A stretch of 32,919 nt of DNA from Magnetococcales bacterium. GTDB taxonomy: Bacteria > Pseudomonadota > Magnetococcia > Magnetococcales > JADFZT01. The translations under genes and the position numbers were made by a program. The notes beneath the pieces are model-generated. The model had not been told where the DNA came from, did not search any database, and saw only the letters and a list, made by a program, of their open reading frames with translations. The stretch spans positions 1-32,919 of the forward strand of contig JADFZT010000057.1 of NCBI GenBank assembly GCA_015232395.1. Direction: 5' to 3'. Below, piece by piece: positions 20,106 through 32,919 of the stretch. Every line of letters begins with the position of its first letter. Position 1 is the first letter of the stretch.

Positions 20106-20134
20106 CCGAACCAAACACAAAAAAACCGAACTTT
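20106..20134 (+). promoter_or_regulatory. Two-part CCGAAC site at the 3' side of the repressor gene
   Basis: CCGAACC (20106-20112), 13 bases, CCGAACTTT (20126-20134). The same composite site occurs three times upstream of the repressor gene. The stretch AAAAACCGAACTTT is identical here and at 21028-21041. Sites on both sides of a repressor gene suggest an auxiliary operator that allows DNA looping, or the end of a small mobile unit; both are inference. Confidence 0.55.
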
Positions 20135-20865
20135 TAAAGCCTGCGACCGGCCCACACCACCCGGCCGACAATTTTCAGCCGCTGTTCCACCATATGAGCC
20201 GATACCGTCATTTTTTCATAGACGGGGTTATCGCTCTGGATATGAATGTTGCCTTCAAAATCCCGTTGCAGGCGCTTGGCGATGAGGGTGTCATCCCGGC
20301 GTATGACATAGATGGCATCGTTGCGCACCTCCCGCTCCCTGAGATCCAGCAACACCAGATTGCCCTCCTGGAGAGTCGGCTCCATGGAGTCTCCCTTCAC
20401 CCCCACCAGAGCCAGCTTGCGGGCATCCAGGCCCATCACCCCCTTGATCCAATCCGCCTTGAAAGCCAGATGGTCCACCACCTCTTCCTGGTGAATCAAT
20501 CCCCCGTCTCCAGCGCTGGCCGTCACCTCATATCGAGGCACCAGCACATACCCTTTGCGCACCAGATAGACCCCATCCACATCCGCCAGGGAAGGAGTAA
20601 ATCCTTTGCCTGAGGAAGCCAGCCGAACCGGGCCTTTGCCGGTTAGGAGATAGTTCAAGGAGATGTCGGTGGCGTAGGCAATTTTGATCAAAGTGCCTCT
20701 TTGGGGCGTCGAACCCTTTTTGAGGATACCTTCAAGGGTGCTTTTGCTGATCCCCGCCCGAATACCCCACCCATAAGGGGGTTCATCACCAATCGCTTTC
20801 AATAGACGCTCCGGCAACCCAGGGGCAGCTTTCTCGTTCTTTTGGGTATCTTGATCGCTTTTCAT
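20134..20865 (-). CDS. Phage-type repressor with HTH and S24 (LexA/CI) peptidase domain
   Basis: A 243-residue transcriptional repressor. Residues 18-75 form an XRE-like helix-turn-helix (GWGIRAGISKSTLEGILKKG, then ATDISLNYLLTGKGP). The C-terminal half is an S24 peptidase: Ser160 in VKGDSMEPTL and Lys197 in DTLIAKRLQ form the Ser-Lys dyad, and an Ala-Gly pair lies at 118-119 (TASAGDGG) where CI-type repressors are cut. Such proteins are inactivated by RecA-stimulated self-cleavage after DNA damage. It diverges from gam-mor across a 258-base AT-rich gap packed with CCGAAC sites. I infer that it represses both directions. No SOS LexA role is suggested, since the neighbours are Mu-like. Confidence 0.9.
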   Translation of the reverse strand: MKSDQDTQKNEKAAPGLPERLLKAIGDEPPYGWGIRAGISKSTLEGILKKGSTPQRGTLIKIAYATDISLNYLLTGKGPVRLASSGKGFTPSLADVDGVYLVRKGYVLVPRYEVTASAGDGGLIHQEEVVDHLAFKADWIKGVMGLDARKLALVGVKGDSMEPTLQEGNLVLLDLREREVRNDAIYVIRRDDTLIAKRLQRDFEGNIHIQSDNPVYEKMTVSAHMVEQRLKIVGRVVWAGRRL

Positions 20866-20875
20866 GGCATCTCAT

Positions 20876-21041
20876 TCGGAAAAAAATTCCGAACCTTCCG
20901 AACTTTGGTGACTTTTTTGTCAAGAAAAAAATACTTTTTCCGAACCACACCCCTGTGTACCGAACTTTTTTTGGTCCGGAAACACTTTTTTCTTGACATA
21001 TTGCCGCTCAAAACCGAACCTTACTCGAAAAACCGAACTTT
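20876..21041. promoter_or_regulatory. Operator cluster between repressor and gam
   Basis: Three composite sites, all in one orientation: CCGAACC-N2-CCGAACTTT (20889-20906), CCGAACC-N13-CCGAACTTT (20940-20968) and CCGAACC-N12-CCGAACTTT (21014-21041). Half-sites are thus 9, 20 and 19 bp apart, one or two helical turns. A dyad TTCGGAA-N4-TTCCGAA (20876-20893) sits just in front of the repressor start. TTGACA at 20993-20998 is a candidate -35 box for gam-mor, though no good -10 follows; a second TTGACA reads leftward at 20924-20919. Binding by the adjacent repressor is inferred. Confidence 0.68.
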
Positions 21042-21123
21042 AAACCACTTTAACCAGACCTATCCTACCTGTAGGCTCCCCAAGGCTTCAATAGGTAGGA
21101 TACATTCCTGTGGAGAGAGTTTC

Positions 21124-21675
21124 ATGGCCAGTCGCAAACGGATTAAACCAAAAAGCCCGGTCATTGTCCGGGATCTTGAACATGCCAACCAGGTATTGGG
21201 AGAAATTGCTCACTTGAAACGCAACATTTCCGCCATCGAAACAGATATGAATCAATCCATCGACCGCATCAAAGCCGCAGCCGAGGCCTTTGCCGCCCCC
21301 CGTCGCTCCAGGCTCGATGCCCTGACCGCCGGGCTCACCGCCTTTGCCGAGTATCACAAAGAGGGTCTGTTCAAGAAAAAACGTTCCGTTGATCTGGCCT
21401 TTGGTCATCTGGGATTTCGCCGCTCCTCTGAAATCAAGCCCAAACCCCGCTCCAAGTGGGCCTTGATTCTCAACCGCATCAAAGAGTTGGGTTATCGGGA
21501 TGCCATCCGCATTCGGGAAGATGTCAATCGGGAAGCGTTGCGGGACTGGCCCGAAGAGCGTCTGGCCATGGTGGGGGCTCGGCGCATGGACAAGGATCTG
21601 TTCTGGTTTGAGCTTAAGGAAGAGGGTTTGGGAGAAGGCGCATGGTCCGGTACTGACGAAGAGGCGCAACCATGA
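21124..21675 (+). CDS. gam: Mu-type host-nuclease inhibitor Gam
   Basis: A 183-residue protein of the phage Mu Gam family, Ku-like proteins that bind double-stranded DNA ends and shield them from exonucleases. Typical features: a basic start (ASRKRIKPKSP), a heptad-rich helix around residues 20-60 (LEHANQVLGEIAHLKRNISAI, DMNQSIDRIKAA), a second helix through LDALTAGLTAFAEYH, and the beta strands KKKRSVDLAFGHLGFRRSS. The start is ATG at 21124 with GGAGAG upstream; the open frame further left is the operator region. Its end overlaps mor by four bases (ATGA). No other early Mu genes (ner, A, B) are nearby. Confidence 0.87.
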   Translation: MASRKRIKPKSPVIVRDLEHANQVLGEIAHLKRNISAIETDMNQSIDRIKAAAEAFAAPRRSRLDALTAGLTAFAEYHKEGLFKKKRSVDLAFGHLGFRRSSEIKPKPRSKWALILNRIKELGYRDAIRIREDVNREALRDWPEERLAMVGARRMDKDLFWFELKEEGLGEGAWSGTDEEAQP

Positions 21676-22043
21676 GCCACAATCCCCGATATCGTGAAAT
21701 CGATCTGCCTGACTCCCTGTTGGAAATCAAGGATGCCATTGGTCTGGAGGGTGCGATGACCCTGGTCAAATCTTGTGGCGGTACCCGGCTGTTCATTCCC
21801 AAACGTATCCGGGCACAACACAAGCTCGCCCAGCTACTGGGCATTGAACGGGCTCGCCGCTTGAGCCTTCGGTTCGGCGGCGAAACCCTGATGATCGTGC
21901 GAGCGGTCAAAGCGATGCGTCAGGCCCGCAACCGGGAGATCATCCGCCGCTACGATGCGGGTATCCCGGTGCGCACCCTGGCCCAGGAGTATGACCTGAC
22001 GGAACGGGCCATCTATGCGATTTTGTCTGCCGTACCGAATTGA
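21672..22043 (+). CDS. mor: Mor-family transcription activator
   Basis: A 123-residue protein resembling Mu Mor/C activators, dimeric proteins that switch on middle or late phage promoters. The N-terminal part (LLEIKDAIGLEGAMTLVKSCGGTRLFIPKR) matches the Mor dimerisation region with its G-G-x-x-x-F-I-P motif. The C-terminal helix-turn-helix reads REIIRRYDAGIPVRTLAQEYDLTERAIYAIL. ATG overlaps the gam stop, so the two are coupled. In Mu the target promoter lies downstream; here no phage gene follows, so the target is either elsewhere in the genome or lost. Confidence 0.87.
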   Translation: MSHNPRYREIDLPDSLLEIKDAIGLEGAMTLVKSCGGTRLFIPKRIRAQHKLAQLLGIERARRLSLRFGGETLMIVRAVKAMRQARNREIIRRYDAGIPVRTLAQEYDLTERAIYAILSAVPN

Positions 22044-30679: not shown

Positions 30680-31951
30680 CTAAATGCCCTTGAACGGGCG
30701 CAGGGAGGGGAGCGCGCCAAAATCCCCTTCGAGATAGTTTTTCTGGAGGGGAGCCCCCTTGGCCACTTCAAAGTCGGAGAGGGGAAAGAGCTGACTGCAC
30801 CGCTCACTACTACGCTCCACCAGCCAAAATTGATCCCGACGAAAGAGAGTGTTGTCCAAAAGCGCGGTATCGTGGGTGGTGCTCACCAGTTGGGCCTGGG
30901 TATTGTTGATTTCGGGGTTGTGGATCAAGCTGAAGAGAAATTTGACCAGGTTGTGGTGAAGGCTGGTATCCATCTCATCCATGAACAAAACCCGCCCCTC
31001 TCCCAAAATATTCATCCAGGGCCAAGCCAGGGCAAAGAGCTTTTGAGTCCCCCGGGATTCGGTCTCCCAAGGAAGATAAACCCCTTTGCCGGTGTCGGCG
31101 GTGGAGCGTTCGAAGCGGACCTCGTTGACCTCCTGGCTGGCCATCTCTTTTTGCAGGGCCAGACGCACCTCGGGGGGGAGATCGTCCATGTTGAGATCCC
31201 CCACGGTGCGGGTCTCCACCTGGATCCCTTCGATATCGATATCCGCCTGGTTGAGAAATTTCATCACCCGGTGGCGTCCTTCGATCTCTTTGCACAGCGA
31301 AGTGGAAAATTCCCGGCTTATTTCGGCATGGGGCCTGAAAACCCGCAGGCGTTTATCAAACCAATCAAAAACCGGTTTTAAGGGGGCGCTGTTGAGCTGA
31401 ATCGCGGTGGAGAGAAACAGAGCGTTATCCCGGGTGGCCTCCCGCCACACTTCCCGATTGCCGGGGAGATGTTTTTTGTGCAGGGTCCACTGGGTTTCAC
31501 CGGTGGTGGCGTCGTGGAAGCGTTCAAACCAGCGCTGGGCCCGTCCTTTGGGAAAAGCCAGAAGCCATTCGTGCCAGACCCGCTCCCGGGTGGCGGCAAA
31601 GCCGTATTGATAGCGCACCCCCCCTTCCACAAAGATCATCTCGAAGGTACTGGGCTGCTGGCTGTTTTTGGAGTTGAGCAAAAAAGGATTGACCTCAATC
31701 TCATCCCCCTCCTGGCCCTTGGCGGAATTAAGCACAAAATTCCACATAAAGAGCGCCGCACGGATCAGATTGGACTTGCCCGAAGCGTTGGGGCCGTAAA
31801 TAACGGTGGACTTCAGGAGCTTGGGCAGGCGGGGCAATCCGGTGGAAAAGCCGTTGTCCGGCATCTCCCGATAGGAGCCGGAAGCCGCCATACTCAGGGT
31901 CTGGGTTTCACAGAAGGAAAGAAAATTGGTGACGCTAAATTCAATAAGCAT
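30680..31951 (-). CDS. RloA/AbiL-like AAA ATPase (COG1106 type), no partner gene
   Basis: A 423-residue ABC/SMC-like ATPase. It opens MLIEFSVTNFLSFCETQTLSM, the typical start of this group, then Walker A GPNASGKSN at 53-61. Further on come a signature-like ESRGTQKLFALAWP near 298-311, Walker B GRVLFMDEMDTSLHH near 318-332, and the switch His in STTHDTALLD near 358-366. There is no Toprim nuclease domain as in OLD proteins. Family members are found in antiphage and restriction-linked loci, typically next to RloB or AbiLii-type effectors. Here no effector follows: the next 200 bases hold only a hairpin, and the next gene is convergent. The upstream side is a MITE. Defence function is therefore open. 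Start has only a weak GGAAC ribosome site. Confidence 0.87.
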   Translation of the reverse strand: MLIEFSVTNFLSFCETQTLSMAASGSYREMPDNGFSTGLPRLPKLLKSTVIYGPNASGKSNLIRAALFMWNFVLNSAKGQEGDEIEVNPFLLNSKNSQQPSTFEMIFVEGGVRYQYGFAATRERVWHEWLLAFPKGRAQRWFERFHDATTGETQWTLHKKHLPGNREVWREATRDNALFLSTAIQLNSAPLKPVFDWFDKRLRVFRPHAEISREFSTSLCKEIEGRHRVMKFLNQADIDIEGIQVETRTVGDLNMDDLPPEVRLALQKEMASQEVNEVRFERSTADTGKGVYLPWETESRGTQKLFALAWPWMNILGEGRVLFMDEMDTSLHHNLVKFLFSLIHNPEINNTQAQLVSTTHDTALLDNTLFRRDQFWLVERSSERCSQLFPLSDFEVAKGAPLQKNYLEGDFGALPSLRPFKGI

Positions 31952-32106
31952 GAATCGTTCCGGCCACAGGTGTTCGAAGGATCAGGGGGAAAGCCTCTAT
32001 TCTCCACCGACCGTCAAGGTAACACGGATTGATGGCGCATGAAATGGTGATGAAAAACAGAAGCTGAAACCGCTATCGCTCCTATCTATCAACCTCCCCC
32101 TGATTT

Positions 32107-32350
32107 TATAGCAATTCAAATCAAGAATTGGACATATGCCGCTGTACTTTTTCTGTCATTCCCGCGAATGCGGGAATCCAGGGGGGCTGGCGCGAACCTT
32201 TCCAAAATCTTGTATCACTTTCAGCAAAACACCGACCTTTCTTGAAGATTTGGTTTTTCCTTGAGGGCAATCATCAGCTCCCTGGATCCCCGCCTTCGCG
32301 GGGATGACGAGTCAGGGAAGAGTGTTCAATTTTGAGGTAGAACTGCTATA
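32107..32350. mobile_element. MITE with TATAGCA(A/G)TTC terminal repeats and dRS3-like hairpins
   Basis: The left end TATAGCAATTC (from 32107) matches the reverse complement of the right end (TATAGCAGTTC, read leftward from 32350). The similarity continues inward through CAAgAATTGgACA / CAAaATTGaACA. Each half then carries a hairpin: ATTCCCGCGAATGCGGGAAT (32158-32177) and ATCCCCGCCTTCGCGGGGAT (32286-32305), both flanked by the CCAG/CTGG and GTCAT/ATGAC blocks. The first fits the ATTCCC-N8-GGGAAT form of the neisserial dRS3 repeat. TA at both ends suggests IS630/mariner-type TA target use. No open frame of note inside, so it is non-autonomous. Confidence 0.7.
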
Positions 32351-32470
32351 CCAAAACAGCTGGGCTCACGCTGATCCACTCAAGGTCCGGCTCTCATCAA
32401 AAATACTCCTCACGATTGAAAAAACAGGCCTTGGGAGCACATGCATCCCGATAACAACCTGCTCAACGGT

Positions 32471-32795
32471 TTTTCCACATTTTGTCAGCTATTTATCCAC
32501 CGGTTATCCACGGCTTGCTCACCGGTTATCCACGACCTTATCCACAGCCTGCTCACAACATTTGGTTCGAGCCTGCTTGATGCAACGCCGTTTTCATTGA
32601 TGTGGTTCGCACAGCTCACCCCACCCCACACGGGTTACTCTTTTCCACCGGTTATCCACCGCCTATCCACAGCTTATCCACCGGTTATCCACCACTTATC
32701 CAACACCTGCCCACAGCTTATCCACTCCCTTATCCACCGATAACCCACCGCCTGTTCAACCACTTATCCACCCGTTATTCCCCCACTTATCCACA
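32471..32795 (+). other. DnaA-box array (candidate replication origin or DnaA-titration locus)
   Basis: Eleven exact TTATCCAC boxes, all on the plus strand, start at 32493, 32504, 32526, 32538, 32652, 32674, 32685, 32718, 32730, 32764 and 32787. Those at 32538 and 32787 are the full consensus TTATCCACA. One-mismatch copies of the eight-base core sit at 32471, 32641 and 32663, and TTATCCAAC is at 32696. Weaker copies fill most gaps, so box starts step by 11 or 12 bases in two blocks (32471-32557 and 32641-32795). The unit TCCACCGGTTATCCAC recurs. Open frames across it encode only repeats of S-T-G-Y-P type and are not genes. I see no clear AT-rich unwinding element and no dnaA, dnaN or parAB in view. 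Candidate oriC or datA-like locus by inference. Confidence 0.75.
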
Positions 32796-32837
32796 GGCCG
32801 AAACCCTGTTTTTGGCAACAAATTCAATCCATACCAT

Positions 32838-32918
32838 CAGGACAACCCCGAAACCCGCTCCAACAGCGGTGGGGAGGCAGTATTGACATCCACCCCGACG
32901 CTGTTGACCGCATCCTCC
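32838..32918 (-). pseudogene. tex: Tex (S1 RNA-binding transcription accessory protein) fragment, cut off at its 3' end
   Basis: Reading leftward from the window edge the frame gives EDAVNSVGVDVNTASPPLL, then ERVSGLS and a TGA at 32840-32838. The V-G-V-D-x-N-T-A-S-x-x-L-L-x-x-V-S-G-L string is highly characteristic of Tex/YhgF. In intact Tex this stretch is followed by a helix-hairpin-helix region and an S1 domain, roughly 200 or more residues, of which nothing appears in any frame here; the DnaA-box array begins 43 bases later. The 5' part lies outside the window. I infer a truncated tex copy, or a broken end created by rearrangement at this point. Confidence 0.7.
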
Positions 32919-32919
32919 A

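Follow-up and report, generated by a model that had tools for sequence, protein, structure and literature searches.

The window analysed here is the whole 32,919-bp stretch of DNA, which makes up an entire contig (C57) of a 4.94-Mb, 170-contig Magnetococcales assembly. Near its right-hand end lies a ladder of DnaA-box-like units that falls into two blocks (Table 1). The genes flanking the ladder on this contig are ordinary chromosomal ones. The nearest to the left, of the AAA_21/AbiEii-like ATPase family, points away from the ladder and has no obvious connection with it. No replication, par or transposase gene was found to the left of the ladder on the contig, the right side being beyond the contig end. 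The contig also carries the gene for Hda. The MITE-like repeat upstream of the ladder is present in many copies, ~86–98% identical, in the 0.9 Mb of genome examined, and some contig ends in that sample fall within its copies. Mu-like relics (adjoining S24/CI-type repressor, Gam-like and Mor-like genes) were also observed at 20134–22043 of the window, 10 kb from the ladder.

Table 1. Coordinates of the ladder, its surroundings in the window, and the box clusters beside mtaB in other Magnetococcales genomes.
Feature	Position	Strand	Details
MITE-like dispersed repeat	32104..32350	.	~247 bp, upstream of ladder
AAA_21/AbiEii-like ATPase family gene	30680..31951	-	nearest left gene
Ladder block 1	32471..32546	+	6 units: 32471, 32493, 32504, 32515, 32526, 32538
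Block 1, special units			32471 = TTTTCCACA; 32515 = TTGCTCAC; 32538 = TTATCCACA, full consensus
Short dispersed repeat between blocks	32578..32634	.	copies on at least 7 other contigs
Ladder block 2	32641..32795	+	14 units
Block 2, first half			32641, 32652, 32663, 32674, 32685, 32696, 32707
Block 2, second half			32718, 32730, 32741, 32753, 32764, 32775, 32787 (last = TTATCCACA, full consensus)
Last 77 bp of contig	32843..32919	.	identical to interior of intact tex on C15
mtaB clusters	L144 9962-10254; L145 9735-10048; L242, L244, L246-L253

The contig ends ~123 bp past the array; thus, the right flank of the ladder is largely outside the sequence. Sequence from within tex begins 48 bp past the last box. 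In the same assembly, the end of contig C4 and contig C2 have exactly 77 bp in common, so that the assembler very probably worked with 77-letter words; the segment at 32843–32919 is then very probably an assembly-graph branch or a chimera and does not point to a real neighbour. A second tex junction was looked for and not found. We rejected a mobile-element insertion in tex because a single junction was found and tex is intact on C15. A coding repeat was rejected because the 11-bp unit is no multiple of 3 and the open reading frame across the ladder has no Pfam match, and an RNA element was rejected because there was no Rfam match.

The earlier note on this DNA had reported at least 11 exact, same-facing boxes together with near matches at 32471–32795, and our counts bore this out. 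The exact 8-mer TTATCCAC occurs 11 times between 32493 and 32794, always on the forward strand, as against a chance expectation of 0.67 copies on average and 3 at most per window (dinucleotide shuffles of the whole window). Elsewhere in the 33-kb window the 8-mer occurs twice. About nine degenerate boxes, recognized by their spacing, are in register with the 11 exact ones and bring the ladder to 20 units, and no box was found on the reverse strand of 32401–32919 at two mismatches or fewer. Tandem Repeats Finder independently reported a period of 11 at the ladder. The earlier note had also proposed looking for further clusters of the 8-mer in the genome; this search covered the 4.94-Mb assembly and turned up no second array of this sort.

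Steps along the ladder are mostly 11–12 bp, that is, 9-mers with 2–3 bp between them. The description of an 11–12 bp ladder with degenerate copies filling the gaps held for the spacing and the period, but the ladder is not one run: its two blocks are separated by a gap of ~93 bp with a dispersed repeat inside. In block 2 the mean step is 11.23 bp, which turns successive boxes by ~25 degrees and amounts to a drift of ~326 degrees across the block. Because of this mean step, the boxes of block 2 wind slowly round the helix and do not lie on one face. The idea of a continuous filament on one face was thus not quite right, the ladder being both interrupted and drifting.

A canonical DnaA box has nine bases. 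The base following the 11 exact 8-mers was C in six cases, G in two, A in two and T in one, and full TTATCCACA 9-mers, with A at the ninth position (A9), accordingly account for 2 of the 11 (32538 and 32787). Boxes that deviate from TTATNCACA have lower affinity for DnaA (PMC5043019). The genome encodes a standard DnaA (L015 7788–9158, minus strand), which keeps the DHTT recognition motif in alignment to solved DnaA structures and whose best match is a protein of a Magnetococcales metagenome-assembled genome (59%).

Departures from consensus are unevenly distributed over the 20 units, affecting 17 of 160 core cells (11%) and 25 of 60 linker cells (42%; p ~1e-6, a value that is somewhat flattering because knowledge of the core guided the placing of the degenerate units). 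With the same unit placement, TTATCCAC is kept best among all 8-base rotations of the 11-mer, with 17 changes versus 23–39 in the others. Differences in length between units likewise sit in the linkers and not in the 8-mer. Because the 8-mer is far better kept than the linkers, it looks selected from its sequence pattern, and a drifting minisatellite should not produce such a contrast. No counterpart of the ladder turned up in other Magnetococcales, among genomes that include no other member of the source family, and selection was therefore judged solely within the array.

We then compared the ladder with the sites at which a chromosomal origin would be sought. In the relative G011, assembled as one contig of 4,719,581 bp, sampled GC skew was for the most part above zero between 0 and 2.1 Mb and below zero between 2.4 and 4.7 Mb, with a fine minimum at ~20–25 kb. 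Beside this minimum, TTATCCACA boxes and AT-rich DNA lie upstream of hemE (27.1 kb), an arrangement known from Caulobacter, and boxes upstream of hemE recur in many Magnetococcales genomes. In the source genome the corresponding boxes are on contig C36 just before hemE (42,730; upstream region ~42,390–42,730), with a 77% AT stretch, and the skew of C36 stops falling near them; the minimum itself was shown at the hemE origin in G011 only. An origin beside dnaA was rejected, as there is no box cluster at dnaA-dnaN-recF-gyrB, which is located on C27. A literature search for a Magnetococcus oriC yielded nothing usable.

The ladder is not the chromosomal origin. A dense box cluster is present (11 exact 8-mers, mostly lacking A9), the GC skew of C57 falls towards the array, and in G316, another Pseudomonadota genome, a one-orientation TTATCCACA cluster lies between a maf-like gene and hemE (contig C1, ~948.6 kb; L418) and is probably its oriC. 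These points are outweighed by the hemE-linked origin on C36, whose box and AT-rich arrangement is seen across the order and whose counterpart in G011 sits at the skew minimum; the ladder is not at the locus conserved in the order, where the skew minimum of G011 also falls. No AT-rich unwinding element was found beside the ladder in the sequence up to the contig end (123 bp on the right): the best 60 bp near it reach 68% AT and are within the MITE-like repeat, compared with 77% at the hemE origin. In addition, the tyrS gene of C57 corresponds to a position at 2.97 Mb in G011, a long way from the origin of that genome. We concluded that an origin function, which the earlier note had offered as one reading, is contradicted by the hemE-linked origin, the G011 minimum and the lack of an AT-rich region, and we give it almost no credence. 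The skew minimum does fall elsewhere (in G011), beside a better box site, which comes close to what the note had named as refuting it, but that site adjoins hemE and not dnaA or parAB. Capture from a mobile replicon and titration in the manner of datA or DARS are now the leading readings, ahead of a chromosomal origin.

Other box clusters away from the origin exist in the order. Ten Magnetococcales genomes, drawn from several families, have a mixed-orientation cluster of DnaA boxes beside mtaB. The one in G011 was rejected as oriC because it is 1.17 Mb off the skew minimum, and its distance of 1.17 Mb from the hemE origin suggests that the mtaB cluster may serve as a datA/DARS-like site throughout the order. 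The mtaB of the source genome has no box cluster. That genome contains two off-origin clusters built like the mtaB one, at C67:7574 (L016 7573–7750) and C42:34641 (L243 1500–1535). In each, one box faces forward and two face the other way, and a stretch with 80% AT comes after the C67 cluster.

Our best reading, to which we assign a probability of roughly 40%, is that the ladder is a chromosomal, off-origin DnaA-binding site of mostly weak boxes that may act as a sink or regulator of DnaA. It is an off-origin cluster of DnaA sites, as titration clusters are, with the sites recognized by their letters, and the mtaB clusters of 10 genomes provide company for it in the order. Less favourable are the A9 count (2 of 11 exact boxes versus 97% in viral ladders, among the matches listed) and the setting amid dispersed repeats, one of which breaks the ladder. 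The main rival, ranked second and somewhat unlikely in our estimation, is that the ladder is an origin, captured or in decay, from a phage, a plasmid or another mobile replicon that relied on the host DnaA; the ladder would then be the initiator-loading region, with the replication genes lost or beyond the contig end. Viral contigs often contain one-orientation ladders stepping by 11–12 bp: a strict pattern matched at least 120 stretches in them versus 11 for the reversed control, and 2 of 10 neighbouring proteins scanned were phage helicases. No strict triple ladder occurred in 398 Pseudomonadota genomes, but this count used the strict pattern, which the C57 array itself fails. A looser pattern that the array passes matched 7 of 249 genomes, the source genome included. 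Four of the seven are triple-box matches in Magnetococcales (G019, G031, G040 and G044); their periods are divisible by 3, and they were set aside as probable coding repeats. The cluster of G316 beside hemE also matched, as did another one-orientation cluster in G086. Also in favour of a mobile origin are the Mu-like relics 10 kb away and the pTrp plasmid of Buchnera, which carries 22 perfect copies of TTATCCACCGG, the same unit as the C57 ladder. These copies, from Buchnera of Cinara fornacula, are in tandem and split by the record ends (L387 1–121 and 2786–2904). Against it, no replication gene lies to the left of the ladder, the genes around it are of ordinary chromosomal kinds and the ladder lacks an AT-rich region. 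Viral ladders, moreover, have boxes almost all in one orientation and almost always carry A9 (509 of 523, 97%, among the matches listed), which the C57 ladder does not. The ladder thus shares the orientation and 11–12 bp steps of phage and plasmid ladders, but its full TTATCCACA boxes number 2 of 11. Viral ladders lacking A9 are rare, and the Buchnera plasmid unit also lacks it. A DNA similarity search in phages returned short matches to box-rich stretches and nothing more, and a literature search on Buchnera trpEG origin repeats gave nothing usable.

Two further explanations do without DnaA. The array could be a functionless minisatellite whose 11-bp unit contains the DnaA-box 8-mer by chance; its tandem period of 11, its position in a repeat-rich gap between dispersed repeats, its absence from relatives and the many other tandem repeats of the genome, with other units, all fit this account. 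We consider it improbable, since changes and length differences sit in the linkers and not in the 8-mer, and since the 0.9 Mb examined held no other comparably long array with an 11-bp unit. Lower still in our ranking is a site array for another protein, either a ParR-type plasmid centromere or a transposable-element end with repeated transposase sites. Plasmid R1 parC consists of 11-bp direct repeats in two clusters, which the ladder resembles, and 48 bp separate the last box from the tex-interior sequence at the contig end. However, there is no par or transposase gene to the left, tex is intact on C15 with one junction found and a shared length of 77 bp that matches the assembly word, and the conserved core agrees with the DnaA box at 8 of 8 positions, which would have to be coincidence.

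If the ladder is a sink or regulator of DnaA, a mechanism can be proposed from its layout. DnaA of Thermotoga maritima pairs best on equally oriented boxes at 2-bp separation, and single-orientation arrays guide head-to-tail ATP-DnaA at E. coli oriC (PMC10316083). Gaps of 2–3 bp combined with weak boxes and a few strong ones would therefore suit cooperative, ATP-dependent filament growth. We infer DnaA binding and a role in titration for the ladder. Binding would nucleate at the full boxes (32538, 32787) and at near-consensus boxes (32471, 32663), and ATP-DnaA would then spread head to tail, in one direction, over the weak sites. Such a filament could remove ATP-DnaA from circulation or expose it to inactivation, and the smaller free pool would limit initiation at the hemE origin, as happens with datA and with clusters of DnaA boxes elsewhere among bacteria. 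Lacking an unwinding element, the ladder would bind DnaA yet not initiate.

A stronger version, which we regard as doubtful, is that the ladder is a purpose-built off-origin site for an ATP-DnaA filament, in which weak boxes without A9, optimal spacing and few strong nucleators would allow cooperative capture to set the timing of initiation. If true, such a site would control DnaA in a way that differs from datA, DARS and simple titration clusters. How DnaA is limited in bacteria outside the main models is poorly known. A long, regular off-origin ladder of weak boxes would be well suited to testing whether spacing and orientation are all that DnaA filaments require on double-stranded DNA, and whether these filaments sequester ATP-DnaA. 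The analysis also located the hemE-linked origin of Magnetococcales and a conserved off-origin box cluster at mtaB, which is directly testable.

Among known systems, the closest functional analogy is with off-origin regulators. DnaA-box clusters in Bacillus are off-origin regulators of DnaA, and datA activity requires IHF sites whereas DARS requires Fis/IHF sites. In E. coli, datA and DARS1/2 are off-origin DnaA-box clusters that regulate DnaA (PMC4585315). These clusters have few boxes (with cofactor sites in datA and DARS), in contrast to the long and regular ladder, for which no conservation was seen. The DnaA-oligomerization region of E. coli oriC is similar to the ladder in having mostly weak boxes in the same direction and a few strong ones, which suits head-to-tail ATP-DnaA (PMC10316083). 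There, however, two opposed arrays of five boxes (left: R1, R5M, tau2, I1, I2; right: R4, C1–C3, I3) are found, whereas the ladder has ~20 units in one direction, away from the origin and with no unwinding element seen. The T. maritima origin has closely spaced boxes like the ladder, those in the same direction working best 2 bp apart (PMC10316083), and the boxes of the Helicobacter pylori origin share one orientation (PMC4285127). Both are true origins with few boxes and an unwinding element, unlike the ladder, and the minimal T. maritima oriC has five boxes of which one is opposed. Ladders in viral contigs resemble that of C57 in their single orientation and 11–12 bp steps, but differ in their A9 (97%), in usually having fewer boxes and in lying, in some cases, beside phage helicase genes. 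The Buchnera pTrp repeats (NZ_LT667502.1) have the identical 11-bp unit in one orientation and in many copies, as in the ladder, but these copies are perfect and are located on a small plasmid beside trpEG.
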